This document shows, one piece after another, positions 20,096-44,662 of a stretch of 64,000 nt of DNA. Within the stretch, counting starts at the first letter, position 1; each line of letters starts with the position of its first letter. The translations under genes and the position numbers were made by a program. Location of the stretch: positions 1 through 64,000 of the forward strand of contig NC_011698.1 of the NCBI RefSeq assembly GCF_000150955.2, given 5' to 3'. Under the pieces are notes generated by a model. It had not been told where the DNA came from and did not search any database. It worked only from the letters and a program-made list of their open reading frames with translations. This DNA is from Phaeodactylum tricornutum CCAP 1055/1 (taxonomy: Eukaryota; Bacillariophyta; Bacillariophyceae; Surirellales; Neidiaceae).

Positions 20096-20099
20096 TTGT

Positions 20100-20289: not shown

Positions 20290-20424
20290 TATGAGACGAA
20301 TCCACTCTTGCGGTTAAGTCTCACTTTGATTTGGTGCGTCTCGTAGCAAATGTACATGAATTTTTGGAAATTTTCGAAAAGGCATCAAGTTCCGTCCTGC
20401 ATAAAGTACAGTCCTTTACGGTAT
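20290..20424. other. Unassigned spacer between elements C and G
   Basis: This short stretch matches none of the repeat families in the window and has no gene. It is probably ancestral flanking DNA; its last bases (GTAT) form the putative target-site sequence of G. Confidence 0.4.
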
Positions 20425-20574
20425 TAGAAAACTGCAACGATAACGGGCTAAAACGTGTCTGTGGGACCAAAGGATTGTAGATACGATAAAAAAGACGTAA
20501 AACAAAGACTTATAAGCATAAACCCAAGATAAAGGGACAATGAACCCCGATATGCTTGTCGTAGGGTTTTTCTA
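20425..20574 (-). repeat. 3' LTR of element G
   Basis: This 150-bp LTR has ends TAGAAAA/TTTTCTA. It aligns over its full length with the LTRs of F and the 5' LTR of G. It is separated from the body of G by element B. Confidence 0.9.
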
Positions 20575-20630
20575 GTCCCCTCACATTGAGACCATGAACA
20601 TAAACTTGGCGAAATGTGTCCCCTCAAAAC

Positions 20631-20793
20631 TAGAAAACTGCAACGATAACCGACTAGAATCGCACTAGAATAGCACAAGATCACTAGTGTAGTTACGAAA
20701 CAGAGCAAAACACAAATTATACCATTATCTGACTGAGCAGACCAGTCTTAGTCTAACGTACATATGACAGACGCTTGACGTGGGGTTTTTCTA
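20631..20793 (-). repeat. 3' LTR of element B
   Basis: This 163-bp LTR has ends TAGAAAA/TTTTCTA and is identical by eye to the 5' LTR at 27,136-27,298. It follows the GTGAGGGGAC purine-rich tract when read on the minus strand. Confidence 0.92.
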
Positions 20794-20973
20794 GTCCCCT
20801 CACATTGGAACTATGACACACATAGGACGATGTGTCCCCTCAAAACCACAACGGGAAAAATAGAGGCACACACACACGACGCTGCATGCAATATAACAAA
20901 TGCAATGCAATTTGTCCCAACCAGAATGACGGTCGAGAACGGGAAAGTCGGCAAACCCTTCAATAAACCAATG

Positions 20974-23900
20974 TCACCACAAAATTTGCCGTATGAGTTC
21001 TTGACGTTTCGGAGCAGGCTGGACCTTTGTAAGAACATCAGCCAAATTCGTATCCGTAGGTTCATACGCAATCTTGATAACTTTCGCGGCAACACATTCA
21101 CGAACAAAGTGATATGCAATGGCATTACTCTTCTTCTTCAACATCGACTCCGGAGCTGTAGTATTATAAACCACAGACATATTGTCGCACAAAACTCTAG
21201 CAGCACCGTCGATAGGAATACCCATCATACGTAGCTTGTATCGTAGACCTTGAATCATCTCAGTAGCGGTCTTAAGTGCAACAAATTCGCTTCCAAAAGT
21301 AGAGGTCTCGACTGAATTCTGACGCTTAGAAAACCACATAATCGGAGCGCGATTCACATAAATCAAAACACCTGTACGAGAACGACGAGTAACACGGTCT
21401 CCCGCATGGTCAGCGTCAACAAACGTTGTAATTTCAACAGCCTTACCGCGAGGTTGCGGTGCATTTGGAGGAATCGGTTCCTTAACATCACCGTAAAAGT
21501 CCGTCCAGTCCACATTTTCCTTAAATTGGTTGTTGATCACAGCATAAGTATCATCGAAAACCAAGCGTGACCGATTGTGAGATTTCAGATAAGCAAAGAC
21601 ATTGAAAACAGCAGTTAAATGTCCCTCGCGCGGCATCGCAAGAAATGAGGACAACATAGACACTTCGCACATGATGTCGATTCGACCAAGTTCAACTGCC
21701 CATCGCAATACTCCAATCAGTGACTGAAAATAATTAGCGCGATCAGGATCGAGAATAGAAGAAACATCTAACTCGGGGCGATAACTGGTCGACATCGGAG
21801 ACGAAGCACGATTGCTTAACGCCCTTCCGATTTCATGTAAGTCTCGTTCAACATTTTTCACGGCTTGTTTAACGTAATCCGTAGAACTCATTGACCATCG
21901 CTCTTTTGTCGGATTATCCGGCAACGAGAATGGCGCAATATTAGCTCCTAGATAATGATCAGGGGGCTTGATTGAATCCGGCTTCAACTTAAAATGCTTT
22001 CCAATAGAATCTAGGATACTTTTCGGATCTGAACTGATACAAAGAAAGTCGTCAGTATAAATCAACACATATTCATAATGTTCCGTACCGTCGGCCTTTT
22101 GAGCTGGACGAAGCCACACATCTGGATCAGCCAGGCACGAAATGAAGTTAAGTTCCTGCATCGTCGAGGCCAGATGAGCGCGCCAGGCAGCACCACTGGA
22201 CTTTAAACCATATAAGGCTCGAACAATGATTGCATACTGATTTTCGCAGGACGGTCCGAACTCAGGACCACAGACGGTGTAAACCTTTTCACGGACAGGT
22301 GCGTTCAAATACGCATTTTGGGCATCGGCACCAAGGATGTCCAGGTCATTAAGAGCAGCAACAAGAAAGGCAAGACGGACACTATCGCGTGAGACGACAC
22401 TGGCATAGGTGATTGAGCTCGGAGGATCCGTTACATGTCCCCCGGCGACGAGTCGGGCTTTGCGAGTGAAGTCCATTTTCACATCGAAAATCATGTGACA
22501 GGGAATACGAGTGTGACCGACAGGCTCAGTGGCTCCAGGATCAAGGATCTTGAAGGCCGGCATGACATGTTTCATTTCCTTTTTGATTGCGTCGGCCCAT
22601 AACGAAGTGTTAGTGTCCCTGTCAATTTCGAGAGCTTCGCGAACGGTTTTGGGAATACGTATACCAAACTTGTGCGTTCTCTTTTGATAACGAGTTTTCA
22701 CAGCAGAGACAATGGTATCTCGCTTACGAAGAGTATGGGGAACCCACCACGCAAAGGCAGGCTCGTGGACCAACTTGTTTGCAACGGCATACTCAGCAAC
22801 TTCGACAGGGTTAGATTCCTTCAGATCTTTAAGCGGCAACCAAGAGACGGATCCGTCTTTCCACTGTACGGACAGTTTCCATCCCTTGGTGGTACGTCGC
22901 ATATGCTGGTTGCCATTACGATCGGTGACATAAAGGTCGTCGGGAGCAACGGCAGAGCCGTTTTTCCGGTGATCAACAATCTCATCTAAAATAAGATGGC
23001 GACGTCCTTCATTGTCAACCTGAGAATAGATGTGCTCGGCAATAACGTTAGCAGCAAACTCTTTGACAACACCATCATTAAACTGTACCTCAAGGACACG
23101 AGAGTCGAGGATAGGATTTGCGTTCGAACGGCCAACCGGGTTGCCGTCGTGATCCTTTTTACGAGCAATAACTTTGCCGGTCAAAAGAGTGTCCCCTACA
23201 GGGAGTAATACTTCAGCATTGATATATTGATCGAATGCATCATGGTCATAGTCGTCGGCTTCCGGCATGGTAGCTTCGTCCCCCGTCGAGTCATCCGAAT
23301 AAGGTTCAAACTCATCGGGGTCACCAATAAATACCGGAACACGATTTGGATTGCCGAACTCTGTCTTAATTGAGTCATTAAACTCCAGCTGCCGTTTCTT
23401 TACAGACTCTGAGTTGTGATCGGCAACAGACAGTGGGGAGTAAGTAGTACGAGCAAGTATTTGTCCATTTGCAGCAAGAACACGAGCACACATTACATGT
23501 CCAATATCATGAGATGGTCCAAGCCATCGACCAAGCTTGCGCTTGTCTTCCGGGAAGTCTACCGGATCATGATACCAAAGCCATTCATACCACGACAATT
23601 CACACAAATGGGAAATATCCGACGTATCGCCGGAAACTGCCGTGTTAGGCACATCATCATGCAAAGCATAGATGTCGTGAGCAATGGAAGACCGAATATG
23701 GCCTTGTAATTCCAAACACATATCCCACAAACACAGTGGGGCTCCTGACTTTGTCATTGCTGTATTTGTCATGCGTTTCAGCGCCTTGATCGCTGTTTCG
23801 GCACGGTTCAACCAGGGAGAGTAAGGCTCAATCTCTAATGCATGGGCGCCAGCTGAGCGCACCTTTCGACGGAACTCGCCATGGGTGAGTTCCTTCGCAC

Positions 23901-26451
23901 CATCCGATATGACTGCAGCTGGGACACCTTCGCGATGGAACAACAGATCCAACGCTTCATGGGCTTCGGCTTTAGATTTCATGGGGTAAGCGCGTGTCCA
24001 GTCAATGTCATTGACAAAGACTTGGGCACACGTATTTCCACGCAACGATTTAAGCTTAGAAAACATGGTGTCAGTGTACAAATTCGTTCGAAGATGACGG
24101 AATCGTAGCTGCGAAGTAACCGGTTTGACGCGTTGCACGAGAGCACGATTGATAATGTTCTTTACACCGCGCTGTGTGGTGACGCGTAGGGTACGTTTGG
24201 CAGTAGCCAAGCCAATGTTCCAACGATGAGCCAACTCCTCAGGGCTGACTTTGTAACGATGATTTGACGATTGGGCAGAGCCAATGACAACAGTATTCTG
24301 AACGGAAGTCACAAAACGAGCGTCATCCAACGAAGTGGAGACGGACGACAAGGTCTCGGCAAGGGCACATGTTGTCGTAACAACACTTGTAACAGCACGG
24401 ACAGTACGACGGGATTTACTCGGAACAACCAAACCACGGGTATTGGTGCAATGCTCCTCCTGACGAGAAAAGTCCAAAGAATGAGGGTCCCACACAGGAT
24501 TGTCGTACGTCATGACGAGGTGAGTACAAGTATCAAACTCTTCAAGACTGGGCTTGCGAGAGGGCAAATACGAAATGACGCCATCAAGCATCAAAGGCAG
24601 CCGAACATTTTCGCTGGGGAAGAAGATGGAGTGTGAGGACTCCGTGGGCTTGTGAGTCAAAAACTTTGGGCACTCTTCCACCTCGACATCGTTGATACGA
24701 AGTTGGTTTGGATTGATCAGGTTGTGTTCCATTTTTGGAAAGTGCAACGCCTGATTGAAAACCAAAATAAAAGTTTCGTACGTGTGCGGGTGGTCGTAAG
24801 CAACAGCAGCGGACACAATGGGCACAGAATGGGCACGTCCGAGCGTGGACAAAAAGGGGCTCACATCGACGGTACGATGAGTTTCTTCAAACACAAAAGC
24901 ATGACGACCAACACAACAAGTATCGGCATGCGAATCCAAATCGGAGCGGGACAAATGGCCCGTACCAACCGATTGGACAGACACAACAGGGCGAGTGGAC
25001 ACAACAGACACATTTCGCTGGGACATGTTCTTGCCAGCAGAAGTGTTAGAAGTCAAAGTCGTGTTGTCATCATGACGAGGACGAGTATTTCGATCCGTGT
25101 CATTGGAAGTATCAACAGCAGACGCATTGCGACGACGATCACCATTACCATTTTGGCGCAAAGTGTGCACATGGCGACGCTGCTCCGCATTCATGGACTC
25201 ATACTCCTCGAAAGAGTAGTAGCGGTCGGTCATACCGCTTGTCGATCCGTTGTTAAACGGTTTACCTTTTCCACCACCGCGACCGCCGCGACCATGACGA
25301 CCGCCGCGACCACCGCGGCCACCTCTTCCGCCGCGACCACCTCGGCCGTTACCGCGACCACTGTGGCCTGTAGAAGCAGAAGAAATGTTACGAACCTGGG
25401 CCTGGTTCTGTTCGTCAATAAACTCACTCAAATAATTGACAGTAGCTTCAAAATCATTTTTCAACGCTGTAGTGGCACGAACGGTCGCAATTGCCGATTC
25501 GAGAGACGGGGCTTTAATGCGCTTCAAAAACTTGCGGACCTTGGCAGCTTCGGTCAATGGCTCACCGAACTCGTCGAGGTCGGTGTGGGCTTGCTGATGA
25601 ATCTCGGCAAAACGCTCGAAAGAAAAGTTTCGGCGCTCACCGCTATAAAACTTGTTTTCGAGGTCTCCCTCGGCCTTGTTCATGATCTTCGATTGGTTAG
25701 TCGGCCCAAGGTAATGAGAACGGAGGGCCAACCAAGCTGCACGACCGTTACGAGAACGAGCGTGAGCAGAAACCCAGCTCCAGGCAGGACCCCCATGGGT
25801 ACAAGCCCGGATTACGGACCAAACTTGATTGTTATCGGCGGCAAAGTCTTCGCCATCATGCGGGCAACGAGCGATCATTTCATCGAAAACACTTGGGTAC
25901 ATGTTATCCGGATCGTCCGGGACTTCGTCGTCGTCGCGGATCACATGGCGCAAAGGAACGCCAGTAGTTCCACGGACCTTGGAGAGATAATCTTCGATAT
26001 TCTCGAAGGCTTCGCGGATCTTCTTGAGGTCATCAATCATGGAAGGAGCCGTAGCATCCTTCGACAGAGTCTTGTCTTCCTCCTCACGGCGTTTAACCTC
26101 CGCCATGGAGAGGACTCGAGCCGCAACGAACTGGCCTGGGATCGGACGAGAGGTACGCTTGAGGTGACGGATATAATATCCGAGCAAGATCAAACGCTCT
26201 TCAGCCGTTGGAGAAATGGCGACACCGGAGCGGGGAATCACCGCTGGGGCGCCTGGCTGAGCGGCGTTGGGATTTGGAACGGTCCCCCCGGGACGACGGA
26301 GGGTGTTGCACATATCCTTGATGAACTTGTCCGTCAAGAACACAAAGTCCTCGACGGAAGTAATAGATTCGGTAATGGCGTCGCGATGAGACGCGTCGAC
26401 AATACCAATCGCCTGAAGGGCGTTACGGACTTGAGCGAGAGCTGCGGCCAT
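20974..26451 (-). CDS. Gag-Pol polyprotein of element B
   Basis: One 1,825-residue frame begins with ATG in a GCCATGG-like context. In order it carries Gag (to about residue 440) with an Arg-Gly-rich RGG-type stretch near 365-400 instead of an obvious CCHC knuckle; a protease with LDSHADTCC near residue 500; an integrase (about 640-1,000, core near 815-850 including ISDGAKEL); a chromodomain-free linker; a reverse transcriptase (about 1,330-1,600, YTDD near 1,467); and RNase H (from about 1,677, FVDADHAGD) to the end. Gag and Pol share a frame with no recoding signal seen, so the Gag:Pol ratio would have to be set by processing or another mechanism. Confidence 0.9.
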   Translation of the reverse strand: MAAALAQVRNALQAIGIVDASHRDAITESITSVEDFVFLTDKFIKDMCNTLRRPGGTVPNPNAAQPGAPAVIPRSGVAISPTAEERLILLGYYIRHLKRTSRPIPGQFVAARVLSMAEVKRREEEDKTLSKDATAPSMIDDLKKIREAFENIEDYLSKVRGTTGVPLRHVIRDDDEVPDDPDNMYPSVFDEMIARCPHDGEDFAADNNQVWSVIRACTHGGPAWSWVSAHARSRNGRAAWLALRSHYLGPTNQSKIMNKAEGDLENKFYSGERRNFSFERFAEIHQQAHTDLDEFGEPLTEAAKVRKFLKRIKAPSLESAIATVRATTALKNDFEATVNYLSEFIDEQNQAQVRNISSASTGHSGRGNGRGGRGGRGGRGGRGGRHGRGGRGGGKGKPFNNGSTSGMTDRYYSFEEYESMNAEQRRHVHTLRQNGNGDRRRNASAVDTSNDTDRNTRPRHDDNTTLTSNTSAGKNMSQRNVSVVSTRPVVSVQSVGTGHLSRSDLDSHADTCCVGRHAFVFEETHRTVDVSPFLSTLGRAHSVPIVSAAVAYDHPHTYETFILVFNQALHFPKMEHNLINPNQLRINDVEVEECPKFLTHKPTESSHSIFFPSENVRLPLMLDGVISYLPSRKPSLEEFDTCTHLVMTYDNPVWDPHSLDFSRQEEHCTNTRGLVVPSKSRRTVRAVTSVVTTTCALAETLSSVSTSLDDARFVTSVQNTVVIGSAQSSNHRYKVSPEELAHRWNIGLATAKRTLRVTTQRGVKNIINRALVQRVKPVTSQLRFRHLRTNLYTDTMFSKLKSLRGNTCAQVFVNDIDWTRAYPMKSKAEAHEALDLLFHREGVPAAVISDGAKELTHGEFRRKVRSAGAHALEIEPYSPWLNRAETAIKALKRMTNTAMTKSGAPLCLWDMCLELQGHIRSSIAHDIYALHDDVPNTAVSGDTSDISHLCELSWYEWLWYHDPVDFPEDKRKLGRWLGPSHDIGHVMCARVLAANGQILARTTYSPLSVADHNSESVKKRQLEFNDSIKTEFGNPNRVPVFIGDPDEFEPYSDDSTGDEATMPEADDYDHDAFDQYINAEVLLPVGDTLLTGKVIARKKDHDGNPVGRSNANPILDSRVLEVQFNDGVVKEFAANVIAEHIYSQVDNEGRRHLILDEIVDHRKNGSAVAPDDLYVTDRNGNQHMRRTTKGWKLSVQWKDGSVSWLPLKDLKESNPVEVAEYAVANKLVHEPAFAWWVPHTLRKRDTIVSAVKTRYQKRTHKFGIRIPKTVREALEIDRDTNTSLWADAIKKEMKHVMPAFKILDPGATEPVGHTRIPCHMIFDVKMDFTRKARLVAGGHVTDPPSSITYASVVSRDSVRLAFLVAALNDLDILGADAQNAYLNAPVREKVYTVCGPEFGPSCENQYAIIVRALYGLKSSGAAWRAHLASTMQELNFISCLADPDVWLRPAQKADGTEHYEYVLIYTDDFLCISSDPKSILDSIGKHFKLKPDSIKPPDHYLGANIAPFSLPDNPTKERWSMSSTDYVKQAVKNVERDLHEIGRALSNRASSPMSTSYRPELDVSSILDPDRANYFQSLIGVLRWAVELGRIDIMCEVSMLSSFLAMPREGHLTAVFNVFAYLKSHNRSRLVFDDTYAVINNQFKENVDWTDFYGDVKEPIPPNAPQPRGKAVEITTFVDADHAGDRVTRRSRTGVLIYVNRAPIMWFSKRQNSVETSTFGSEFVALKTATEMIQGLRYKLRMMGIPIDGAARVLCDNMSVVYNTTAPESMLKKKSNAIAYHFVRECVAAKVIKIAYEPTDTNLADVLTKVQPAPKRQELIRQILW

Positions 26452-27135
26452 GGTGAACTTTTAACTTTCTTCCTGAGGACGGGAAGGAACTTCGAAAAGA
26501 GTTTCGAGTTGAGCATGTGTTAGCAAGGTCGGCTTGGCATAACGGGAACAACAATAGTTTCTTTTGATCACTGGTTACGAATTTTGCAAATATTTGGTTC
26601 GCATACGCTTAAATAGTGATAGCCGGCCTGATTGCCGGGTCAATAACTAAAATACCCATTGTGGTATATATCTATACATTTGATAGCAAGAGTGGAGGAG
26701 CAGCGAATACCACTTGGTACGAGGTCCGATATTAACAATTGGTAAGTGGATGTTCGAAAACAGATCCTACTTAACATCCAAGCTTAGGATGCCGCTCGGG
26801 CTAGAGCGTTGAGTAAAGCTTCGGTAGAAGAAGCTCCATGGAAGCGTCCAACCATGGGAGGTGCCTTGTTTCAAGCCGCTATTGCAGACAAGAAACCCAG
26901 TATCCGATCGACACGACTACCACGTGGACCATTACGAGATACTGTCAGTATATTCTAGGCCTCTGCAGGCGTCGGCGACTCGACAACAACATGAAGAGCC
27001 AGGTATTATGCTTGCCTCCCCAGGCACATTCGGCCTCGGCGCTTCCGTCAAAACACTCACAAACGCTCAGACCATCACAACAAACTTATACCTTTGATCC
27101 CACAGGGATACAGAACGACTTTGGGTCTGATAAAC

Positions 27136-27298
27136 TAGAAAACTGCAACGATAACCGACTAGAATCGCACTAGAATAGCACAAGATCACTAGTGTAGTTA
27201 CGAAACAGAGCAAAACACAAATTATACCATTATCTGACTGAGCAGACCAGTCTTAGTCTAACGTACATATGACAGACGCTTGACGTGGGGTTTTTCTA
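27136..27298 (-). repeat. 5' LTR of element B
   Basis: This 163-bp LTR is identical by eye to the 3' copy. On the minus strand it is followed by GTTTATCAGACCC, the probable primer binding site. Transcription of the element should start within this LTR. Confidence 0.92.
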
Positions 27299-30200
27299 AA
27301 ACCACAATGGGAAAAATAGGGAACCAAATAAAAATAAAACTTCGACACTGCATGCAATGACAAATATAATGCAAATGCAATTTGTCCCAACATTGAACCT
27401 GTTGAGAACGGGAAAGTCGGCAAACCCTTCTTGTTACTTGAATCACCATAAAATACTTCGTATGATAGCTTGTCTCACTGGACCTGTTTGAACCTTCGTA
27501 AGTATATCCGCTAGATTTGATTCTGATGGTTCATATGCAATCTTGATCACTTTCATGGCAACATTTTCTCGTACGAAATGATACGCTATCGCGTTACTTT
27601 TCTTCTTCAACACTGATTCTGGTGCCGTAGTATTGTATACAACCGACATATTGTCACAAAGAACTTTAGCTGGACCATCAATAGGAATACCCATCATACG
27701 TAACTTGTATCGTAGACCTTGTATCATCTCAGTAGCAATCTTTAATGCAACAAACTCACTACCAAAAGTAGACGTTTCAACTGAATTCTGACGCTTCGAG
27801 AACCACATAATCGGAGAACGATTGATATAAATCAAAACACCTGTTCGAGAACGACGAGTAACACGGTCTCCCGCATGGTCAGCGTCAACAAAAGCTATAA
27901 TCTCCACCACCTTACCACGTGGTTCTGGAGCATTCGGTGGAATAGGCTCTTTAACATCACCATAAAAATCTGTCCAATCTGCATTATTGTTAAAGCTGTT
28001 GTCAATCACCGGATAAGAATCATCAAATACCAATCGAGACTTGTGATGTGACTTCAAATATCCGAAAATATGAAAAACTGCAGCTAGATGTCCTTCACGC
28101 GGCATCGCGAGAAAAGATTAGAGCATAGACACCTCACACATTATATCAATGCGACCAATTTCAACTGCCCATCTCAAAACTCCTATCTGTGACTGGAAAT
28201 AGTTAGCACGTTCCGCATCCAACACAGGGGAAACATCGAGCTCCGGTCGATAATTTGACGACATAGGTGACGTAATCTTTGTAGATAAACGTTTTCCAAC
28301 TTCATCCAAATCCTTTTCAACATTTGCAACTGCTTGTTTCACATAATTCGTGGAACTCATCGACCATTGTTGTTTCGATGGATTATCGGGAAGCGCAAAA
28401 CGTCCAAGATTTGCTCCCAAATACACCTCGGGCGTCTTAATTGATTCAGGCTTGAGTTTAAAATGCATACCGATCGAATCCAGGATCTTCTTCGGATCTG
28501 TACTGATACATAGGAAATCATTGGTATAAATAAGCACATACTCATAGTAATTCGTACCATCGTGTTTCTGAGCTGGTCTAAGCCAAACATCTGGATCTGC
28601 AAGACAAGAGATAAAATGCAACTCCTCCATTGTCGCAGCTAAGTGAGCACGCCATGCTGCCCCACTCGACTTTAAACCATATAACGCACGAACAATAAGT
28701 GCATAACGACCTTCCATTGACTTTCCGAACTCTGGACCACATGTTGTATATACCTTTTCGCGAACTGGAGCATTCAAATAAGCATTCTACGCATCAGCAC
28801 TAAGTATATCCAATGATTTCAAAGATGCGATGAGTAAAGCAATTCGAACACTATCGCGCGAAACAACACTGGCATATGTAATCGAACTCGGCGGATCTGT
28901 AACATGTCCCCCGGCGACGAATCTGGCTTTGCGAGTAAAATCCATTTTGATATCAAATATCATGTGACATGGTATCCATGTATGAGCAACTGGTTTAGGA
29001 GCATCCTGATCAAGAATTTTAAATGCTGGCATAACATTTGTCATTTCCTTCTTGATTGCATTCGACCACAACAAAGTGTTAGTATCTCGGTCAATCTCGA
29101 GAGCTTGCTTGACCGATTTTGGCATACAAATACCAAACTTGTGAGTCCTTTTAAGGTATCTCGTCTTTACCGCTGAAATAATACAATCACGTTTCTGCAA
29201 TATGTCTGGTACCCACCAAACAAAAGCTGGCTCATGAAGCAGTTTGTTAGAAACGGCATATTCGGCGACTTCAATTGGATTCGATTCCTTCAGATCTTTA
29301 AGAGGAAACCAAGTTGTAGATCCGTCCTTCCATTGCAATAACAACACCCAGCCTTTAGTAGTTCGTCTTATGCGTTTCACACCATGCTTGTCCGTATAAT
29401 ACATATCGTCAGGTGCAACTGCCAATCCATCCATCTTGTGATCAATGATCTCATCTACTATTCGAAACCGGCGTCCTTCATCATCCACCTGCGAATATAA
29501 GTGTTCCGCAATAACGTTAGCAGCAAATTCCTGCACATTACCGTCTGGGAACTGGACTTCCATAACTCTCGTATCCAAAACAGGATTGGGATGTGATTTC
29601 CCTACCAAGTTACCATCGCGATCCTTTTTACGCGCAATGACTGTTCCAGTGGTAGCAATGTCCTTGTACGGTAACACAACTTGTGCATCAAGGTATTCAT
29701 CAAAAGCTTCATGATCTAACTCGTCTGCTTGAGGCATTGACGGCTCGTCCCCTGTCGAATCATCTGAATAAGTGCAAAATACATTAACTTCTTCAGGAAA
29801 CACAGGGGCAATGGCATCATCACAGTTATTATAGCTCAAAGTTGCATCAAATGAGGACTTGTCTAATTGCACCTCCCTGGAATTAAGATCAGCTGTAGAG
29901 AGTGGCGAGTAAGAAGTTCGAGATACCACTTGACCACTTCGAACAAGTATACGCGCACACATAACATCACCAATGTCATGCGCAGGACCAAGCCAGCAAC
30001 CTAGATTCCGTTTGTCTACCGGAAAGTCGACTGGGTCCAAATACCATATCCAATCATACCAAGCAAATTCACATAAGTGACTGATATCCGTCGTATCACC
30101 TGACACTGCCGTGTTCGGTACATCGTCGTTCAATGCATAAATGTTATGGGCAATTGACGATTGAATCATACTTTGCAACTCCAGGCAAAAATCCCATAGA

Positions 30201-33200
30201 TATAACGGTGCAGATGACTTTTCCATAGCCATGTTAGTCATGCGTTTCAATGCTCTGATTGCAGTCTCAGCTCGATTTGACCACGGTGAGTAAGGTTCAA
30301 TTTGTCTAGCATGGGATCCTGCTGCACGAACCTTCCATCTGAATTCACCCTGCACCAATTCTTTCGCGCCATCCGAAATAATCTCGGCTGGAACACCTTC
30401 TCGGTGAAACAACAAATCCAATGTCTCATGGGCATTACCTTTTGACTTCATAGCATAAGCACGTGTCCAATCAAGATTGTTGACGTAAATCTGGGCACAG
30501 GTGTTTCCGCTCAAAGACATTACACAAGAAAACATTGTATCCGTATACACACTTGTACGGAGATGTCGGTATCTGAGCTGACTGGTAGTTGGCTTGACTC
30601 TCTGTGTTAAAGAGCGACTGGCAATATCCTTGACCCCTCTCTGAGTTGTAGCCAATAAAGTTCGTTTCGCTGCAGATAAACCAATATTCCAACGTCTGGC
30701 TAACTCTTCCGGAGTAACTCTGTACCTGTAATTCAACAACTGAGCAACACTCACCAGACATGTCTTCTCAAGTGCTTCGACAAAATGCTGTTCATCGAGT
30801 GACACCGAAATACTAGACAACACAACTGATACTGTACTTTTGTGTGACGAGATCATTAGAATGTTTGCATGACCGGATTGTCTCGTTACCAAAATACCTT
30901 TGCTATCGGTATACTTCTCCTCCTGACGAGTAAAATCCGTCGAATAAGGATCCCAAATGGGATTGTCATACGTGAGAGTCAACTTGTGAAAATTACGAAA
31001 CTCCTCCGGAGACGGCTTTCGCACTGGCAAATACGAAATCACACCATCTAATTGCAGATGCAATTTAAGATTCTCGTTCGGGAAATAAATCAAATGTGAC
31101 AAATCCGTGGGAATTTCAAGTAAAAATCTTGGACAATCATAGACCTGCACATTGTTTAACCGGAGCTGATTCGGATTTAACAAATTATGTTCCATGGTAG
31201 GAAAGTGCAAGGCCTGATGAATAGTTAAAATAAAAGTCTCATATGTGTAAGGATGATCATATGCAAGAGCAGCAGAGACAATTGGTACAGACCGGGCTTG
31301 TCCCAATGTAGATAAAAATGCAGAAACATCAACCGTTCGAGAGGTTTTGTGAAATATATAAGCGTTCTTTCCAACGCAACAAGTATCCGCGTGAGAATCT
31401 AACTCCGCGTGTGATATAAATGCACTCTCAAGTGACTGTATAGAGATAGAATGTGTTGATACCACTGACATATTCGAACTTCTCTGCGACATATTTCGAC
31501 CTGCTGACGACTTCGAAGTAAGCGAGCTTGTATCATCACGACTCGTCTTTGATTTCTTGTCATCCTCCTTTTCTTGAGAATCAACAGTAGAAGCATTGCA
31601 TTTACCACCAGCTTCTTGACGTAATGTATGCAAGTGACGCTTCTGTTCAGCATTCATACTCTTGTATTCATCAAAGGTATAATACTTATCCACCATGCCC
31701 TTGGTAGAACCTTTGTTGAAAACACCTCTATCACTGCGTCCACCGCGACCTTTATTACCACGACCTGATCCTCTACCTCGTCCTTGACCCCAACCAGATC
31801 AACCTGACCAAATATTCCGAAGCTGAGCTTGATTCTGCTCTTCAATAAACTCACTGAGGAAATTCACTGTGGCTTCAAAATCATTTTTCAAAGATGGGTT
31901 AGCACCAACAGTGGCAATTGCAGAATTGAGAAACAATGCCTGAATCCGTTTCAAAAATTTCCGAACTTTTGCAGCCTCTGTCAATGGCTCTCCAAACTCT
32001 TCCAGATCTGTATGAGCTTGCTGATGAATCTCAGCAAAACGTTCGAAAGTAAAGTTACGACGCTCTCCATTGTAGAACTTTGACTCAAGATCACCTTCAG
32101 CACGCGTCATAATCTTTGACTGATTAGTCGGTCCCAAATAATGCGAGCGAAGTGCAAACCAAGCCGCACGACCATTACGAGCTCGAGCATAAGCCGACAC
32201 CCAGCTCCAAGTAGGACCACCATGAGTACAAACGCGAATAATAGACCACACTTGAGCATTATCTGCTGCATAGGACTCTTCTTCATGCGGACATTGCGCT
32301 ATCATTTCTTCAAACGCATCTTGATAGTTGTTATCCGGACCTTCAGGAACTTCTTCATCTTCACGAATGACATAAGCCAATGGAACTCCCGTTGTTCCTC
32401 GAATTTGAAGCAAATATTCCGCAATATTTTCGAAGGCATCACGGATCTTCTTCAGGTCTTCAATTTGTCCAGGAGCAACAAGGTCTTTCGCTAACTCTTT
32501 GTCTTCCTTCTCACGCTTCTTGATCTCGATCATCGAGAAAATACGCGCCGCATTGAACTGAGCCGGATAAGGCCGAGAAGTGCGCTTGAGGTGACGAACA
32601 TAGTATGCCAATAACACAAGACGCTCCTCCGCAGTAGGTGAAATTGCTACACCATTGTGAGGAATCATTGCCGGGGCTCCAGGTTGTTCTGCGTTAGGAT
32701 TCGGAAGTGTACCCCCGGGACGACGGATGTTCTTACACATGTCCTTGATGAAATCATCCGTTGCGATCTCGAAAACATCCATAGACGTAATCGAATCCGT
32801 GATGGCATCGCGTTGTTCGACATCAACAATGCCGATCGCTTGTAAAGCATTTCGAACTTGAGCTAAAGCAGCCGCCATGGTCAACTCTTGTCTTCTTCAC
32901 CTGTCTTAAATTTCATAAAAACTTCGTAAGCTGGTTCGACAACATTCAGTGTTCTTTCTGCACCACGTGAACACGAGAATTATTGATCACTGATAACATC
33001 ACATGTGAACACCACATAAATACCATATAAGTGATATCGATATTGAATACCGTTTGAGAACCATTTCAATAAAACGCGACAAACACCATTTTCATGTCGC
33101 AACCCATAATACGAGATATTTGGCTGATATCTATCAGAGTGGAGGATCCACGATTACCGTTTGGTACAAGTCCGATAATTGTTGCTGTATAAGTAAATGT

Positions 33201-33599: not shown

Positions 33600-33749
33600 T
33601 AGAAAACTGCAACGATAACGGGCTAAAACGCGTCTGTGGGACCAAAGGATAGTAGATACGATAGAAAAGACGTAAAACAAAGACTTATAAGCATAAACCC
33701 AAGATAAAGGGATAATGAACCCCGATATGCTTGTCGTAGGGTTTTTCTA
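33600..33749 (-). repeat. 5' LTR of element G
   Basis: This 150-bp LTR differs from the 3' LTR of G at about four positions. It is followed on the minus strand by the TTTATCAGACCCATCGTTC leader shared with F. Confidence 0.9.
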
Positions 33750-34322: not shown

Positions 34323-37076
34323 TTATGCTGATGAGGGTGATTCTGGAAGCGCATCTTGGTCCAGAGCCGTTGCCTTGATTGTTTCCAAAACGCTCTTCAG
34401 TCTCTTGCCACCCGCTGAAGGTCGAAAGCTGTATATTTGCTGGCCGTCTTTTCGCACGCTTACTACTGTTGGTAAAGGATTAAGAATAGAGGGAGTTGAT
34501 TCTTGCACATCAAAGTCCACTTCGCTTATCCGGAAGATGGCCGTCCGGCTGCCACCAATCACCGGAATGAGCTGAGTGATAAACAAAAGGTGTTTTGCCG
34601 TTACAGAGCAGGTGCCGGAAGCCCCCCCAACAACAATATTCCATTTTAACAAAGGTACTTCCATGACACCCGCTTTCCTGTGAAAATCATCTGCAGCTTT
34701 GGCTGCCTTCTCGGACAATGCGATACCGTTCTGTAAGGATTGAATCAAAGTGCGCTGATGTGCTTGCATCTTGGCCAACCTATCCATTACTTGTAGGTTC
34801 TTACGGCCTAGCCGAGCACCCTTCTCCTCGTCGTCTTGTATTTGAAATGCGTTCAGGATAAGAGAGACCGCACGTCGTGCCATGGCCAATGACTCTGACG
34901 CATCAATAGCATACAGAGTTGTCGGCGACAAAATCGGTTCGTCTCGCCCGGCGTCACTTGTAAGAGCTTGAGTCTCGTTTAAAGCTTCCATCACTCTCAG
35001 CCCCCAAGGTGGACATGCCTGTTGGGGTGGTGTAAAGTCCAAGGGATATTCGTTGAGCGGCACAGGTTTGGGCAACAATGGGGCTTCCATACCGTATGCG
35101 TCAAATGTTGGCTGTAGTAGCGAAATCATGTTGGCACAAGCGTACTCGGCCTCGCGCGCGTACTCTTCTAATTCGCTCGCGCTCTTCAGTAGCTGCATTA
35201 TCATGACTTCCCGTGAAAACCGTCGAATCTGCGAGCAGTAGTGTACATCCAAGGTAGGCAAAGCCGGAAAAGCCCCAAAGCGCGCCGTGGTCAATGTCGT
35301 GTAAGTCAAGTCCCGTGTTTCTAGCTCTTCCCACGTCGCTTGGACGAAACGCCACGAAGACTGAATCACTGGCCAGTCGTCCGAATTCAGAGACGGTAAG
35401 GTGATGCTTCCTTCGCGGACGGACGGACACGCTCGGTAATGCTCCAATAGATGACTGGAGACAAGAGTCTGCATGGACTCACGGTTGTCGAAGCGTTTGC
35501 CCGGGGAGCGGATCCTTTTTGACAATTCGGGAGCTTCTACCCGCTGCACCAATGCACAACATTCGCGCAAACGAGTGGATGCCTCAATATCAAGGTGTTC
35601 TACCAACGCAAAGTGATTTGTTCCTAATACGTGATCGCCGGCCGGATTTTGCTGTGACAGTGCCGTGACCCAAGATGTGTTCATATTGTCCACATCGTCA
35701 CTGGGTTGAATAGACTCGCTGCAACAGTGATACACGCGTAGCAACAAGACTCGCTCGCAAGAATCAGATTTGGCCGTGCATAATTGAGCATCGATGAGAA
35801 AGGGTGGGTATGTACTGGGTACACCCTCCAACTCGCCCGCACTTGATTTACTGTGAAAGGATTCTTCCACAAGTCGATCCGGATCTCGTGGGACGACACA
35901 CCCGGATATGATTCCTCGTAAATGACCGCCCTGTCGTTTGAGAATCCGTGCATGTATGGCGGTACTAGTCAGAACCTGATGTACGGCATCCATTATGGCT
36001 CCACAGAGAACGTCAGGTCGGACTGGGATTGCCAAGGTGCGAACCGGTAAGGGTAGTGTGTATTGACTACAACCAGTAACAGTAGTATCAGGTCCGGGTT
36101 TGGCTGCATCTGGTAAACCCACATATAAATGTTTAAGTTTGGATTCGGGAATGGCGAGACAATAGTCTTTCAAACCGATGAGATTCCCGGTAGTTGTGTC
36201 GCGGGGTGGTACAACGAAGGAAGTCAAGTCGACCGAATACCAACCGCCGTGTTCTTCCAACGAAAGGCGCAAAGCGGTAAAGTGATCCTTGTGTGTGTAG
36301 GGCTGAATAGGATTGGCTACGGAACGGGATGGTGTACCTGCCGTTAGCAGTATGGAACTATCCCTGGGTCCTTGGTCAACTTCGGGAGACGAAGAAGTCG
36401 TGGCTGTCGATTTCCCATTCGGCGAAGATACTGGAGATGGTATACGGATTGGCGACAGAACTTTGTCTGGACAATCGTCGTCGTCAATTTCCAAGCTGCA
36501 TTCTTCCTGCTTGTTACCGTCGCTGGGATCTATATCGGCCTCTCGACTGGACGACGACTGCAGAGCGAGGGCAGGTGAACCGTCGGCACTTTGGTGATCC
36601 GGCGGATCAAAGAGCTGTCGTTTCATCCCCTCGCAAAAGGGTGTTCCCGATAAATTGAATTTGTCGACTGCGTCGCTAGTGTTTGACATATTGTGCGAAA
36701 CTGTTTGAAATAAGGTGGAAAAGTCCTGGGCGAGTTCCAATTCTTGTCGCAAGAGTGCTTCCGAGAATTGCAGACTCTCCATTTCCCGATCCATGTCATC
36801 GTCTTCCGAAGTGGCTGCTTCCAAAACAGAGAAGGAGGGATGCGACTGAAATTCGAATGGAACCTGCAGGAGAGCGTCCGCTTGTTCAAAATCAGGGGCG
36901 AGTTTGGCCGCAAGCGCTCGGATTTCGGCGTTTTGTGATTCGTCCGGATTCAAGGGGACGGGACTGTTCACACAATCGTCGAGAGCCAGCTTGTCGTATG
37001 CCTGTGTGTCTTCGTCTGTTCCCGACTCCGTTGAGGCGTCGGATCGGAGTGAAGCGGGAGTCAACGAGGAGGACAT
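34323..37076 (-). CDS. Large protein of unknown function with C-terminal PH/GRAM-like segment
   Basis: The 917-residue product starts at the ATG at 37,076 (MSSSLTPAS); the frame runs further upstream only from a TTG. The N-terminal third (to about residue 270) is acidic, Ser/Pro-rich and probably disordered. The middle (about 270-700) has mixed secondary-structure character and no family I recognise. Residues about 700-800 look helical, with a possible coiled coil (RKNLQVMDRLAKMQAHQRTLIQ region). The last 110 residues (LLKWNIVVGG... CSVTAKHLLFITQ... FRISEVDFDV... VSVRKDGQQIYSF) have the strand pattern of a PH/GRAM-like lipid- or protein-binding fold. A role in membrane-associated signalling or trafficking is only a suggestion. 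The gene is the sole occupant of the 3.7-kb segment between the inverted elements G and F. The frame is intact and intronless. Confidence 0.75.
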   Translation of the reverse strand: MSSSLTPASLRSDASTESGTDEDTQAYDKLALDDCVNSPVPLNPDESQNAEIRALAAKLAPDFEQADALLQVPFEFQSHPSFSVLEAATSEDDDMDREMESLQFSEALLRQELELAQDFSTLFQTVSHNMSNTSDAVDKFNLSGTPFCEGMKRQLFDPPDHQSADGSPALALQSSSSREADIDPSDGNKQEECSLEIDDDDCPDKVLSPIRIPSPVSSPNGKSTATTSSSPEVDQGPRDSSILLTAGTPSRSVANPIQPYTHKDHFTALRLSLEEHGGWYSVDLTSFVVPPRDTTTGNLIGLKDYCLAIPESKLKHLYVGLPDAAKPGPDTTVTGCSQYTLPLPVRTLAIPVRPDVLCGAIMDAVHQVLTSTAIHARILKRQGGHLRGIISGCVVPRDPDRLVEESFHSKSSAGELEGVPSTYPPFLIDAQLCTAKSDSCERVLLLRVYHCCSESIQPSDDVDNMNTSWVTALSQQNPAGDHVLGTNHFALVEHLDIEASTRLRECCALVQRVEAPELSKRIRSPGKRFDNRESMQTLVSSHLLEHYRACPSVREGSITLPSLNSDDWPVIQSSWRFVQATWEELETRDLTYTTLTTARFGAFPALPTLDVHYCSQIRRFSREVMIMQLLKSASELEEYAREAEYACANMISLLQPTFDAYGMEAPLLPKPVPLNEYPLDFTPPQQACPPWGLRVMEALNETQALTSDAGRDEPILSPTTLYAIDASESLAMARRAVSLILNAFQIQDDEEKGARLGRKNLQVMDRLAKMQAHQRTLIQSLQNGIALSEKAAKAADDFHRKAGVMEVPLLKWNIVVGGASGTCSVTAKHLLFITQLIPVIGGSRTAIFRISEVDFDVQESTPSILNPLPTVVSVRKDGQQIYSFRPSAGGKRLKSVLETIKATALDQDALPESPSSA

Positions 37077-37461
37077 GACACTGGCGTATGGTGTGGGGAT
37101 GCGTCTGTTCTCGTAAACGGAAGGATGGTGGGCGCGAAAGTGATCCAGCAATCGTCCTCGTGCTGTCCGGGGATGCTTTGCGAAAGAACGGCTTCTCGGT
37201 GTCAATCGCTAGAGTCACAGAACAAATCAATGACAAGAAAAGCACGGTGTGGAGGACGAAAGTTGACAGGTACGCTTGGTGGTGTTGCTTTTGCTTTTGA
37301 TCGTATTGTTGTGCTGTGGGTAGGTGTCATCATGGTCTCTTGACTGCAAGCCTGCCCCGACGCCTTGTTGTTCGGAGAATTTCAAACAAATGTCTTGAAC
37401 GACAATAAAAACCAATCGAAAACCACACAGGATACTTTGAGGAAGTTCGCTATCGTAATAC
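37077..37461. promoter_or_regulatory. Upstream region of the 34,323-37,076 gene
   Basis: This 385-bp stretch between the gene's ATG and the 5' LTR of F must hold the promoter and 5' untranslated region. I recognise no specific element. The LTR of F points away from the gene and lies only about 385 bp upstream, so it could influence expression. Confidence 0.35.
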
Positions 37462-37611
37462 TAGAAAAACCCTACGACAAGCATATCGGGGTTCATTGTC
37501 CCTTTATCTTGGGTTTATGCTTATAAGTCTTTGTTTTCCGTCTTTTTTATCGTATCTACAATCCTTTGGTCCCACAGACACGTTTTAGCCCGTTATCGTT
37601 GCAGTTTTCTA
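37462..37611 (+). repeat. 5' LTR of element F
   Basis: This 150-bp LTR has ends TAGAAAA/TTTTCTA. It is followed by GTTTATCAGACCC, the probable primer binding site. Confidence 0.9.
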
Positions 37612-37825
37612 GTTTATCAGACCCATCGTTCTACGCTGAGGTAGCGGGATCAAAGGTAGGGTGATTCGTTGTGATTTGAGTGTTTGTTTAATGAGCCTCA
37701 GTTTTTGGTCCCACAGACACGTTTTAGCCCGTTATCGTTGCAGTTTTCTAGTTTATCAGACCCATCGTTCTACGCTGAGGTAGCGGGATCAAAGGTAGGG
37801 TGATTCGTTGTGATTTGAGTGTTTG
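37565..37825 (+). repeat. Partial duplication of LTR end plus leader start in F
   Basis: About 122 bp from within the 5' LTR through the primer-site region into the leader (37,565-37,686) recurs at 37,704-37,825, a 139-bp period. A short spacer, TTTAATGAGCCTCAG, lies between the copies. F therefore has two primer-site-like sequences; G has one. Confidence 0.85.
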
Positions 37826-40800
37826 AGTGATCGCCAAGTCCGATAGTGCCTGGGGAGGTAAAGCTAAATACCTGGCTCTTCATGTCGTTGTTGAGTCGCC
37901 GAAGCCTGCAGAGGCCTGGAATATACTGCCAGTTTCTCGTAATGGTCCATGTGGTAGACATGTTGATCGGTAACTGGGTTTCGTATCCGTCTAACGGTCT
38001 GAAACGAGGCAAAATCTCCATGGTGGGACGCTTCCATGGATCTCTTCATCTACCGAAGAAGGTGCATTGCACAAGAATTTATTGTTTGCTAAAAGCTCGG
38101 ATCCAAGCTTTATCCATGTGTGGATGATAAGTAGTTTGTTTGCATGGAACATTTACTTATACAGCAACAATTATCGGACTTGTACCAAACGGTAATCGTG
38201 GATCCTCCACTCTGATAGATATCAGCCAAATATCTCGTATTATGGGTTGCGACATGAAAATGGTGTTTGTCGCGTTTTATTGAAATGGTTCTCAAACGGT
38301 ATTCAATATCGATATCACTTATATGGTATTTATGTGGTGTTCACATGTGATGTTATCAGTGATCAATAATTCTCGTGTTCACGTGGTGCAGAAAGAACAC
38401 TGAATGTTGTCGAACCAGCTTACGAAGTTTTTATGAAATTTAAGACAGGTGAAGAAGACAAGAGTTGACCATGGCGGCTGCTTTAGCTCAAGTTCGAAAT
38501 GCTTTACAAGCGATCGGCATTGTTGATGTCGAACAACGCGATGCCATCACGGATTCGATTACGTCTATGGATGTTTTCGAGATCGCAACGGATGATTTCA
38601 TCAAGGACATGTGTAAGAACATCCGTCGTCCCGGGGGTACACTTCCGAATCCTAACGCAGAACAACCTGGAGCCCCGGCAATGATTCCTCACAATGGTGT
38701 AGCAATTTCACCTACTGCGGAGGAGCGTCTTGTGTTATTGGCATACTATGTTCGTCACCTCAAGCGCACTTCTCGGCCTTATCCGGTTCAGTTCAATGCA
38801 GCGCGTATTTTCTCGATGATCGAGATCAAGAAGCGTGAGAAGGAAGACAAAGAGTTAGCGAAAGACCTTGTTGCTCCTGGACAAATTGAAGACTTGAAAA
38901 AGATCCGTAATGCCTTCGAAAATATTGCAGAATATTTGCTTCAAATTCGAGGAACAACGGGAGTTCCATTGGCTTATGTCATTCGTGAAGACGAAGAAGT
39001 TCCTGAAGGTCCGGATAACAACTATCAAGATGCGTTTGAAGAAATGATAGCGCAATGTCCGCATGAAGAAGAGTCCTATGCAGCAGATAATGCTCAAGTG
39101 TGGTCTATTATTCGCGTTTGTACTCATGGTGGTCCTACTTGGAGCTGGGTGTCGGCTTATGCTCGAGCTCGTAATGGTCGTGCGGCTTGGTTTGCACTTC
39201 GCTCGCATTATTTGGGACCGACTAATCAGTCGAAGATTATGACGCGTGCTGAAGGTGATCTTGAGTCAAAGTTCTACAACGGAGAGCGTTGTAACTTTAC
39301 TTTCGAACGTTTTGCTGAGATTCATCAGCAAGCTCATACAGATCTGGAAGAGTTTGGAGAGCCATTGACAGAGGCTGCAAAAGTTCGGAAATTTTTGAAA
39401 CGGATTCAGGCATCGTTTCTCAATTCTGAAATTGCCACTGTTTGTGCTAACCCATCTTTTAAAAAAGATTTTGAAGCCACAGTGAATTTCCTCAGTGAGT
39501 TTATTGAAGAGCAGAATCAAGCTCAGCTTCGGAATATTTGGTCAGGTCGATCTGGTTGGGGTCAAGGACAAGGTAGAGGATCAGGTCGTGGTAATAAAGG
39601 TCGCGGTGGACGCAGTGATAGAGGTGTTTTCAACAAAGGTTCTACCAAGGGCATGGTGGATAAGTATTATACCTTTGATGAATACAAGAGTATGAATGCT
39701 GAACAGAAGCGTCACTTGCATACATTACGTCAAGAAGCTGGTGGTAAATGCAATGCTTCTACTGTTGATTCTCAAGAAAAGGAGGATGACAAGAAATCAA
39801 AGACGAGTCGTGATGATACAAGCTCGCTTACTTCGAAGTCGTCAGCAGGTCGAAATATGTCGCAGAGAAGTTCGAATATGTCAGTGGTATCAACACATTC
39901 TATCTCTATACAGTCACTTGAGAGTGCATTTATATCACACGCGGAGTTAGATTCTCACGCGGATACTTGTTGCGTTGGAAAGAACGCTTATATATTTCAC
40001 AAAACCTCTCGAACGGTTGATGTTTCTGCATTTTTATCTACATTGGGACAAGCCCGGTCTGTACCAATTGTCTCTGCTGCTCTTGCATATGATCATCCTT
40101 ACACATATGAGACTTTTATTTTAACTATTCATCAGGCCTTGCACTTTCCTACCATGGAACATAATTTGTTAAATCCGAATCAGCTCCGGTTAAACAATGT
40201 GCAGGTCTATGATTGTCCAAGATTTTTACTTGAAATTCCCACGGATTTGTCACATTTGATTTATTTCCCGAACGAGAATCTTAAATTGCATCTGCAATTA
40301 GATGGTGTGATTTCGTATTTGCCAGTGCGAAAGCCGTCTCCGGAGGAGTTTCGTAATTTTCACAAGTTGACTCTCACGTATGACAATCCCATTTGGGATC
40401 CTTATTCGACGGATTTTACTCGTCAGGAGGAGAAGTATACCGATAGCAAAGGTATTTTGGTAACGAGACAATCCGGTCATGCAAACATTCAAATGATCTC
40501 GTCACACAAAAGTACAGTATCAGTTGTGTTGTCTAGTATTTCGGTGTCACTCGATGAACAGCATTTTGTCGAAGCACTTGAGAAGACATGTCTGGTGAGT
40601 GTTGCTCAGTTGTTGAATTACAGGTACAGAGTTACTCCGGAAGAGTTAGCCAGACGTTGGAATATTGGTTTATCTGCAGCGAAACGAACTTTATTGGCTA
40701 CAACTCAGAGAGGGGTCAAGGATATTGCCAGTCGCTCTTTAACACAGAGAGTCAAGCCAACTACCAGTCAGCTCAGATACCGACATCTCCGTACAAGTGT

Positions 40801-43800
40801 GTATACGGATACAATGTTTTCTTGTGTAATGTCTTTGAGCGGAAACACCTGTGCCCAGATTTACGTCAACAATCTTGATTGGACACGTGCTTATGCTATG
40901 AAGTCAAAAGGTAATGCCCATGAGACATTGGATTTGTTGTTTCACCGAGAAGGTGTTCCAGCCGAGATTATTTCGGATGGCGCGAAAGAATTGGTGCAGG
41001 GTGAATTCAGATGGAAGGTTCGTGCAGCAGGATCCCATGCTAGACAGATCGAACCTTACTTGCCGTGGTCAAATCGAGCTGAGACTGCAATCAGAGCATT
41101 GAAACGCATGACTAACATGGCTATGAAAAAGTCATCTGCACCGTTATATTTATGGGATTTTTGCCTGGAGTTGCAAAGTATGATTTGATCGTCAATTGCC
41201 CATAGCATTTATGCATTGAACGACAATGTACCGAACACGGCAGTGTCAGGTGATACGACGGATATCAGTCACTTATGTGAATTTGCTTGGTATGATTGGA
41301 TATGGTATTTGGACCCAGTCGACTTTCCGGTAGACAAACGGAATCTAGGTTGCTGGCTTGGTCCTGCGCATGACATTGGTGATGTTATGTGTGCGCGTAT
41401 ACTTGTTCGAAGTGGTCAAGTGGTATCTCGAACTTCTTACTCGCCACTCTCTACAGCTGATCTTAATTCCAGGGAGGTGCAATTAGACAAGTCCTCATTT
41501 GATGCAACTTTGAGCTATAATAACTGTGATGATGCCATTGCCCCTGTGTTTCCTGAAGAAGTTAATGTATTTTGCACTTATTCAGATGATTCGACAGGGG
41601 ACGAGCCGTCAATGCCTCAAGCAGACGAGTTAGATCATGAAGCTTTTGATGAATACCTTGATGCACAAGTTGTGTTACCGTACAAGGACATTGCTACCAC
41701 TGGAACAGTCATTGCGCGTAAAAAGGATCGCGATGGTAACTTGGTAGGGAAATCACATCCCAATCCTGTTTTGGATACGAGAGTTATGGAAGTCCAGTTC
41801 CCAGACGGTAATGTGCAGGAATTTGCTGCTAACGTTATTGCGGAACACTTATATTCGCAGGTGGATGATGAAGGACGCCGGTTTCGAATAGTAGATGAGA
41901 TCATTGATCACAAGATGGATGGATTGGCAGTTGCACCTGACGATATGTATTATACGGACAAGCATGGTGTGAAACGCATAAGACGAACTACTAAAGGCTG
42001 GGTGTTGTTATTGCAATGGAAGGACGGATCTACAACTTGGTTTCCTCTTAAAGATCTGAAGGAATCGAATCCAATTGAAGTCGCCGAATATGCCGTTTCT
42101 AACAAACTGCTTCATGAGCCAGCTTTTGTTTGGTGGGTACCAGACATATTGCAGAAACGTGATTGTATTATTTCAGCGGTAAAGACGAGATACCTTAAAA
42201 GGACTCACAAGTTTGGTATTTGTATGCCAAAATCGGTCAAGCAAGCTCTCGAGATTGACCGAGATACTAACACTTTGTTGTGGTCGAATGCAATCAAGAA
42301 GGAAATGACAAATGTTATGCCAGCATTTAAAATTCTTGATCAGGATGCTCCTAAACCAGTTGCTCATACATGGATACCATGTCACATGATATTTGATATC
42401 AAAATGGATTTTACTCGCAAAGCCAGATTCGTCGCCGGGGGACATGTTACAGATCCGCCGAGTTCGATTACATATGCCAGTGTTGTTTCGCGCGATAGTG
42501 TTCGAATTGCTTTACTCATCGCATCTTTGAAATCATTGGATATACTTAGTGCTGATGCGTAGAATGCTTATTTGAATGCTCCAGTTCGCGAAAAGGTATA
42601 TACAACATGTGGTCCAGAGTTCGGAAAGTCAATGGAAGGTCGTTATGCACTTATTGTTCGTGCGTTATATGGTTTAAAGTCGAGTGGGGCAGCATGGCGT
42701 GCTCACTTAGCTGCGACAATGGAGGAGTTGCATTTTATCTCTTGTCTTGCAGATCCAGATGTTTGGCTTAGACCAGCTCAGAAACACGATGGTACGAATT
42801 ACTATGAGTATGTGCTTATTTATACCGATGATTTCCTATGTATCAGTACAGATCCGAAGAAGATCCTGGATTCGATCGGTATGCATTTTAAACTCAAGCC
42901 TGAATCAATTAAGACGCCCGAGGTGTATTTGGGAGCAAATCTTGGACGTTTTGCGCTTCCCGATAATCCATCGAAACAACAATGGTCGATGAGTTCCACG
43001 AATTATGTGAAACAAGCAGTTGCAAATGTTGAAAAGGATTTGGATGAAGTTGGAAAACGTTTATCTACAAAGATTACGTCACCTATGTCGTCAAATTATC
43101 GACCGGAGCTCGATGTTTCCCCTGTGTTGGATGCGGAACGTGCTAACTATTTCCAGTCACAGATAGGAGTTTTGAGATGGGCAGTTGAAATTGGTCGCAT
43201 TGATATAATGTGTGAGGTGTCTATGCTCTAATCTTTTCTCGCGATGCCGCGTGAAGGACATCTAGCTGCAGTATTTCATATTTTCGGATATTTGAAGTCA
43301 CATCACAAGTCTCGATTGGTATTTGATGATTCTTATCCGGTGATTGACAACAGCTTTAACAATAATGCAGATTGGACAGATTTTTATGGTGATGTTAAAG
43401 AGCCTATTCCACCGAATGCTCCAGAACCACGTGGTAAGGTGGTGGAGATTATAGCTTTTGTTGACGCTGACCATGCGGGAGACCGTGTTACTCGTCGTTC
43501 TCGAACAGGTGTTTTGATTTATATCAATCGTTCTCCGATTAGTTGGTTCTCGAAGCGTCAGAATTCAGTTGAAACGTCTACTTTTGGTAGTGAGTTTATT
43601 GCATTAAAGATTGCTACTGAGATGATACAAGGTCTACGATACAAGTTACGTATGATGGGTATTCCTATTGATGGTCCAGCTAAAGTTCTTTGTGACAATA
43701 TGTCAGTTGTGTACAATACTCCGGCACCAGAATCAGTGTTGAAGAAGAAAAGTAACGCGATAGCGTATCATTTTGTACGAGAAAATGTTGCCATGAAAGT

Positions 43801-44102
43801 GATCAAGATTGCATATGAACCATCAGAGTCAAATTTAGCAGATATACTTACAAAGGTTCAAACAGGTCCAGTGAGACAAGCTATCATACGAAGTATTTTA
43901 TGGTGATTCAAGTAACAAGAAGGGTTTGCCGACTTTCCCGTTCTCAACAGGTTCAATGTTGAGACAAATTGCATTTGCATTATATTTGTCATTGCATGCA
44001 GTGTCGAAGTTTTATTTTTATTTGGTTCCCTATTTTTCCCATTGTGGTTTTGAGGGGACACATTTCGCCAAGTTTATGTTCATGGTCTCAATGTGAGGGG
44101 AC

Positions 44103-44252
44103 TAGAAAAACCCTACGACAAGCATATCGGGGTTCAATATCCCTTTATCTTGGGTTTATGCTTATAAGTCTTTGTTTTACGTCTTTTTTATCGTATCTAC
44201 AATCCTTTGGTCCCACAGACACGTTTTAGCCCGTTATCGTTGCAGTTTTCTA
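44103..44252 (+). repeat. 3' LTR of element F
   Basis: This 150-bp LTR differs from the 5' LTR at about three positions. It follows the purine-rich tract directly and is bordered on the right by a T7 run. Confidence 0.9.
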
Positions 44253-44662
44253 TTTTTTTGATGAGCTCTACAAACGCAAGAACGCGAATGATGGAAATCG
44301 ATGAACTAATAAGAATTATGAGTCGATTGAGAATCGCTATTTGGTTTGTATGGCTCGGAGACACTCTCAATGACTGGTTTGAATGGCAATGACATGTTTG
44401 AAATGTCAGCGGGAAGACTAGAATGCCCGGTTGGCGTTCTTGTCTTGTAAGTACTTGTGATTTGAATCGGGATACTATCAGTAGAGCCGTAACTGATAGG
44501 GTAACTGTCATCAGTACCGTAACTGATAGGGATAGGATGATTGGGCTCGATCTTCATATCAACACGTTTTCCGTATCGTGCCTCGTAGGTTCTCTTTGAA
44601 GCTCTTAACCAGCGTTGACGGTGAGTCACTTCTTGTTGTATAGAACTCACCGTCTGTTGAGC
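44253..44662. other. Intergenic between element F and the DXO/RAI1-like gene
   Basis: This holds the upstream region of the plus-strand gene at 44,663. A 16-bp unit, CCGTAACTGATAGGG-like, occurs twice (about 44,488-44,532). A long minus-strand frame (44,306-44,650) contains repeated ISYG tetrapeptides but lacks an ATG at its start, so I do not call it a gene. Confidence 0.4.

Follow-up and report, generated by a model that had tools for sequence, protein, structure and literature searches.

Where a retrotransposon inserts, it duplicates a few bases of its target, so what does it mean when two elements lie face to face and neither has a matching target-site duplication (TSD)? This question is raised by the window analyzed here, bases 1-64000 of contig C30 (NC_011698.1; 317,207 bp) of Phaeodactylum tricornutum CCAP 1055/1. 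In it, two copies of one long terminal repeat (LTR) retrotransposon family, elements G and F, bracket a segment S in opposite orientation, each with its 5' LTR inside, adjoining S (Table 1). Segment S contains an open reading frame (ORF) of 917 residues, for which no Pfam family was found at E 0.001. In the 88-contig assembly (27,450,724 bases), which was used for all genome searches, the single further match to S covers 70 bp at 77% identity.

We observed TSD halves displaced across S, a similarly displaced TSD of a neighboring solo LTR, and an LTR allele common to different ends of the two elements, as well as long tracts in which G and F are identical. Because of the two kinds of displaced TSD, the shared allele, and the low probability of the flank matches by chance, we conclude that S is inverted in this sequence relative to its state at the time of element insertion. 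The simplest explanation is crossing-over between G and F in the cell, to which we assign a probability of roughly 0.6. As a reading of the sequence, the flip of S has good support; as a biological event set against misassembly, it is undecided.

Target-site duplications on either side of segment S

The sequence-only reading had described G and F as near-identical inverted copies, neither of which has matching flanks of its own, and both statements hold. From the inner LTRs to the site of a nested element in G, the two copies differ by 51 substitutions in 6,451 aligned bases, and the outer 206 bases contain 2 differences. The resulting inverted arms extend over 6,226 nt, are 99% complementary, and lie 4.3 kb apart. 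In the present order, the flanks of G (...ACGGTAT and AAAACGAACT) do not match each other, and neither do those of F (...CGTAATAC and TTTTTTTGAT). Flipping S restores both duplications, GTAT with GTAT and TTTT with TTTT, each of exactly 4 bp and not of the 4-5 bp initially proposed, whereas the third possible pairing, outer with outer and inner with inner flank, gives 1 and 0 bp.

The LTR of this family is 150 bp long (TAGAAAAA...GTTTTCTA) and has at least 40 near-full-length matches in the assembly, including the four in G and F. Paired LTRs of this length together with a 4-bp TSD agree with a Ty1/copia-like (CoDi) element. Both outer flanks could be read for seven other family copies, and an exact 4-bp TSD was found in five (CTAG, GTAT, ATAT, AATT, and CTGT). 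The TSD is absent from a copy at 813-819 kb of contig C14 (CATC/GGAT) and from a solo LTR on C16 (GTTT/AACA). The remaining LTR matches were unusable for this comparison, in most cases since the matches did not include their partner LTR.

A third duplication involves the solo LTR Z, which adjoins F and belongs to another family. Z recurs at nine other places at 97-100% identity, seven of them containing the left end, and has further, mostly more distant matches at 75-97%; the other copies of its family mostly have 5-bp TSDs. CGTTT follows Z on its right; the left CGTTT that it lacks is found at the opposite end of S, so that the pair is complete as well once S is flipped. The T-run match, which had been called weak on its own, is thus stronger than thought because the CG preceding the T run completes the TSD of a second element. 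The expectation that GTAT and TTTT together make chance less likely could also be quantified: the probability of finding GTAT plus CGTTTT at the two given positions is about 1.6e-6. If S was flipped, the empty sites should read ...TTTACGGTATTACGATAG... on the left (20,424 joined to the 37,457 side) and ...GAGTTCGTTTTTTTGATGAGC... on the right (the 33,754 side joined to 44,253). The 1.4 kb to the right of Z occurs once in the assembly.

LTR alleles and sequence exchange between G and F

We aligned 39 LTRs of the family, omitting three rows (two repeating one locus and one flank duplicate) and keeping other pairs with the same flank. At alignment position 37, the outer LTR of G and the inner LTR of F have a G that is found in none of the 37 other LTRs. 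When the four LTRs are paired as expected from a swap, the fewest changes are needed (1+4), as opposed to 4+3 for the present pairing and 2+5 for the third. As a control, the LTRs of an intact element on contig C5 share two two-copy alleles. Because of the private allele common to both, the inner 5' LTR of F is probably the original 5' LTR of the left insertion, termed G0; under the flip reading, the inner 5' LTR of G would be that of the right insertion, F0. The inner LTR of G and the outer LTR of F share no private allele and differ at 4 sites. The LTR pairing therefore supports one half of the swap and not the other.

In the two end stretches that were compared, the copy closest to G is F, and vice versa. 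Across the whole shared stretch, the sites at which they differ form clusters, with identical runs of 1602, 921, and 890 bp between them. Among 20,000 permutations, the longest run was reached in 1 and the four longest together in 0. Such clustering is compatible with gene conversion or crossing-over and, to the same degree, with reads that an assembler used in both copies. An allele comparison covering the 5' and 3' ends counted 17 differences as private to either G or F, and 16 of these belong to F. Since they are found in the inner as well as the outer part of F, the comparison does not locate the crossover position. F also has a 138-column insertion relative to G, due to an exact tandem duplication of LTR end and leader with 17 unmatched filler bases between the copies. 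A search of the window that allowed up to 2 mismatches gave no other match to 16 bases of the filler stretch. Duplication and filler could possibly be a repair scar adjoining the inverted segment.

Table 1. Positions of the elements, duplications, and other features around segment S in the window. G0 and F0 denote the putative original left and right insertions.
Feature	Position	Strand	Remarks
GTAT, outer flank of G	20421-20424	plus	reverse complement of 37458-37461; putative TSD copy of G0
Element G, LTR retrotransposon	20425-33749	minus	3' LTR 20425-20574 (outer), 5' LTR 33600-33749 (inner)
Nested Blackbeard-like Ty1/copia element, in outer part of G	20631-27298	minus	163-bp LTRs, 4-bp TSD AAAC
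Segment S, between G and F	33750-37461		single-copy in the assembly
CGTTTT at end of S	33750-33755	minus	putative TSD of F0 (TTTT) and left TSD of solo LTR Z (CGTTT)
917-residue ORF in S	34323-37076	minus	
GTAT (ATAC on plus), inner flank of F	37458-37461	minus	putative second TSD copy of G0
Element F, LTR retrotransposon	37462-44252	plus	5' LTR 37462-37611 (inner), 3' LTR 44103-44252 (outer)
Exact 122-bp tandem duplication in F (LTR end and leader)	37565-37686 / 37704-37825	plus	copies 100% identical
TTTT, outer flank of F	44253-44256	plus	putative right TSD copy of F0
Solo LTR Z, other family than G/F	44256-44564	plus	F0 presumably inserted into its left edge
CGTTT, right TSD of Z	44565-44569	plus	left partner is the reverse complement of 33751-33755 in S

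Crossing-over in the cell or crosswise joining in the assembly

In the order of events that we propose, two related Ty1/copia-like elements would first have inserted at a distance of about 3.7 kb, facing opposite ways. The target would have been GTAT for G0 and, in the left edge of the older solo LTR Z, TTTT for F0. Non-allelic homologous recombination between these inverted copies, on a single chromatid, would later have produced a crossover that reversed S together with the inner part of each element. Such a crossover would make the present G and F reciprocal chimeras, both composed of an LTR and a TSD half from each parent. We infer that the crossover was a cellular event, not a product of the assembly, and that the two elements shared one chromosome copy. 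It had been proposed from the sequence that the inversion turned the 917-residue gene and reassorted its flanking DNA. The orientation of the ORF does change, but the inner 5' LTR at either end of S stays joined to that end: when the crossover falls inside G and F, the only DNA exchanged is that beyond the crossover points, namely the outer element parts and what lies past them.

The flank pairing, the TSD of Z, and the allele shared by the outer LTR of G and the inner LTR of F all agree with the signature of crossing-over that the sequence-only reading had recognized, but a chromosome inversion is inseparable here from an assembly misorientation of S. In the latter case, S would have its ancestral orientation in the organism, and the Sanger assembly would have joined the halves of G0 and F0 crosswise through their long and nearly identical arms, perhaps helped by G0 and F0 being on different haplotypes. 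We regard this as a real possibility, though not the one we favor. Length, identity, and closeness of the arms speak for such an error, and shared reads could explain why G and F are identical over runs of 0.9-1.6 kb. According to PMC8147415, the reference is a mixture of haplotypes, as shown for five chromosomes examined, and chromosome 30 is one of two chromosomes without a confident resolution by Bionano optical mapping; most CoDi insertions of the long-read assembly are reported there in one haplotype. Moreover, S is single-copy, and our searches of the assembly, one of which scored 40 of 140 candidates, found neither an alternative contig nor a second copy, be it of S or of the two outer flanks, that would show the other arrangement. 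On the other hand, the window is free of gaps and ambiguous bases, the 51 clustered differences between the copies would have given an assembler handles to tell them apart, and exchange between such elements has been published for this genome (PMC2806351).

Besides the reported state of the reference, several observations weigh against an inversion. A misassembly predicts the same junctions. The 4 differences per 150 bp in the supposed F0 pair compare with 0-2 between the LTRs of three family elements with intact TSDs. The outer LTR of F has a two-copy allele in common with L012, an unrelated solo LTR on contig C22, and the inner LTR of G has a T common to five other LTRs but not to the outer LTR of F. 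Two-copy alleles occur in four unrelated LTR pairs in all, the pair with L012 included, and among 300 LTR pairs taken from different copies, 19 differ at one site at most, so the LTR test by itself is modest. Furthermore, Z begins here with TTTTGATG, where its family has TATTGATG. Finally, the LTRs of the copy at C14:813030-819195 differ at 1 site and the copy still lacks a TSD, indicating that a missing TSD has other causes too.

G and F might instead each have recombined with family copies elsewhere, gaining new flanks without involving each other. Five P. tricornutum elements without TSD and the exchange between PtC25 and PtC75 on chromosomes 11 and 31 (PMC2806351) provide precedents, but the missing partners of all three TSDs lie at the two ends of S and no outside partner is required; we consider this scenario highly improbable. 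Least credible is a coincidence in which the TSDs of G and F were lost or never present for separate reasons (LTR recombination with other copies, or mutation), because, even though two of the seven other testable copies and the five published elements also lack TSDs, it requires the flank matches at two given positions by chance plus the LTR allele pattern.

Returning to the inversion by crossing-over, S could even be a recurrently flipping segment in mitotically growing cells, in which case a clonal culture would have the 917-residue frame in both orientations. It would be the 99%-identical inverted arms of 6.2 kb, so near to each other and with tracts presumably homogenized by conversion, that recombine; we think this reading unlikely. 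If the inversion is true, this diploid alga offers an inversion made by retrotransposons and still recognizable from three target duplications that were displaced. Should the assembly be at fault, a reference in wide use has one segment whose orientation must be corrected.

Neighboring elements and known exchanges between transposons

The element nested in the outer part of G resembles Blackbeard, which is described in PMC2806351 as a P. tricornutum Ty1/copia element with a 163-bp LTR and the TSD TTCC. The nested element has LTRs of the same length, and one published Blackbeard primer matches it exactly and the LTR primer with 1 mismatch. A 167-nt repeat at 20627 and 27132, containing both LTRs, is 100% identical, and the Pfam reverse-transcriptase domain RVT_2 is present. 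Two ORF pieces of F, the only ORFs of G and F that were scanned, gave no Pfam match. The family of G and F is related to the nested element, with 74-77% DNA identity over three 300-nt repeats, but has the shorter LTR of 150 bp; the 4-bp length of the TSD is common to all three elements.

Directly left of G lies a Blackbeard-type LTR fragment (20098-20296), in which a 133-bp part and a part of about 58 bp have opposite orientation, forming a small inversion inside the LTR. Further left, the stretch 18000-19795 recurs at 91% identity, among the matches listed, close to the ends of contigs C1, C31, and C60; the small contig C44 has two copies of it. Elsewhere in the assembly, there are three pairs of G/F-family LTRs (L007/L013, L060/L061, and L062/L064) whose members belong to different contigs, are no more than about 25 kb away from a contig end, and have the same 26-bp flank, which suggests duplication of end-of-contig segments. 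Another LTR of the family (L020, in C60:161108-167806) has element DNA on both sides, suggesting elements in tandem that share an LTR, and the copy at C14:813030-819195 is another candidate for element recombination.

We found no report of an inversion on chromosome 30 by term look-ups in the main texts of PMC8147415, PMC9266582, PMC2806351, and PMC10833087, nor in the titles and opening lines of abstracts from literature searches on the species and on method and assembly background. The Drosophila buzzatii inversion 2z3 (PMC2775673) is similar to S in having homologous copies in opposite orientation at its breakpoints, there of Galileo, and exchanged TSDs. However, Galileo is a DNA transposon with 7-bp TSDs, and inversion 2z3 was confirmed by chimeric copies and by non-inverted chromosomes with one copy of each target, whereas S is known from one arrangement, measures 3.7 kb, and has its chimerism half supported. 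Another comparable case is the exchange between PtC25 and PtC75 in P. tricornutum itself (PMC2806351), where copia-like elements also lack TSDs, the TSD halves are displaced, and an older element is split between two flanks. That exchange took place between two chromosomes, unlike an inversion within one. PMC2806351 proposes that, in this diatom, rearrangement by transposons takes the place of sex in generating diversity. Exchange mediated by transposable elements with displaced TSDs is already documented in this species, and the inversion of S, as we read it, is a further example.
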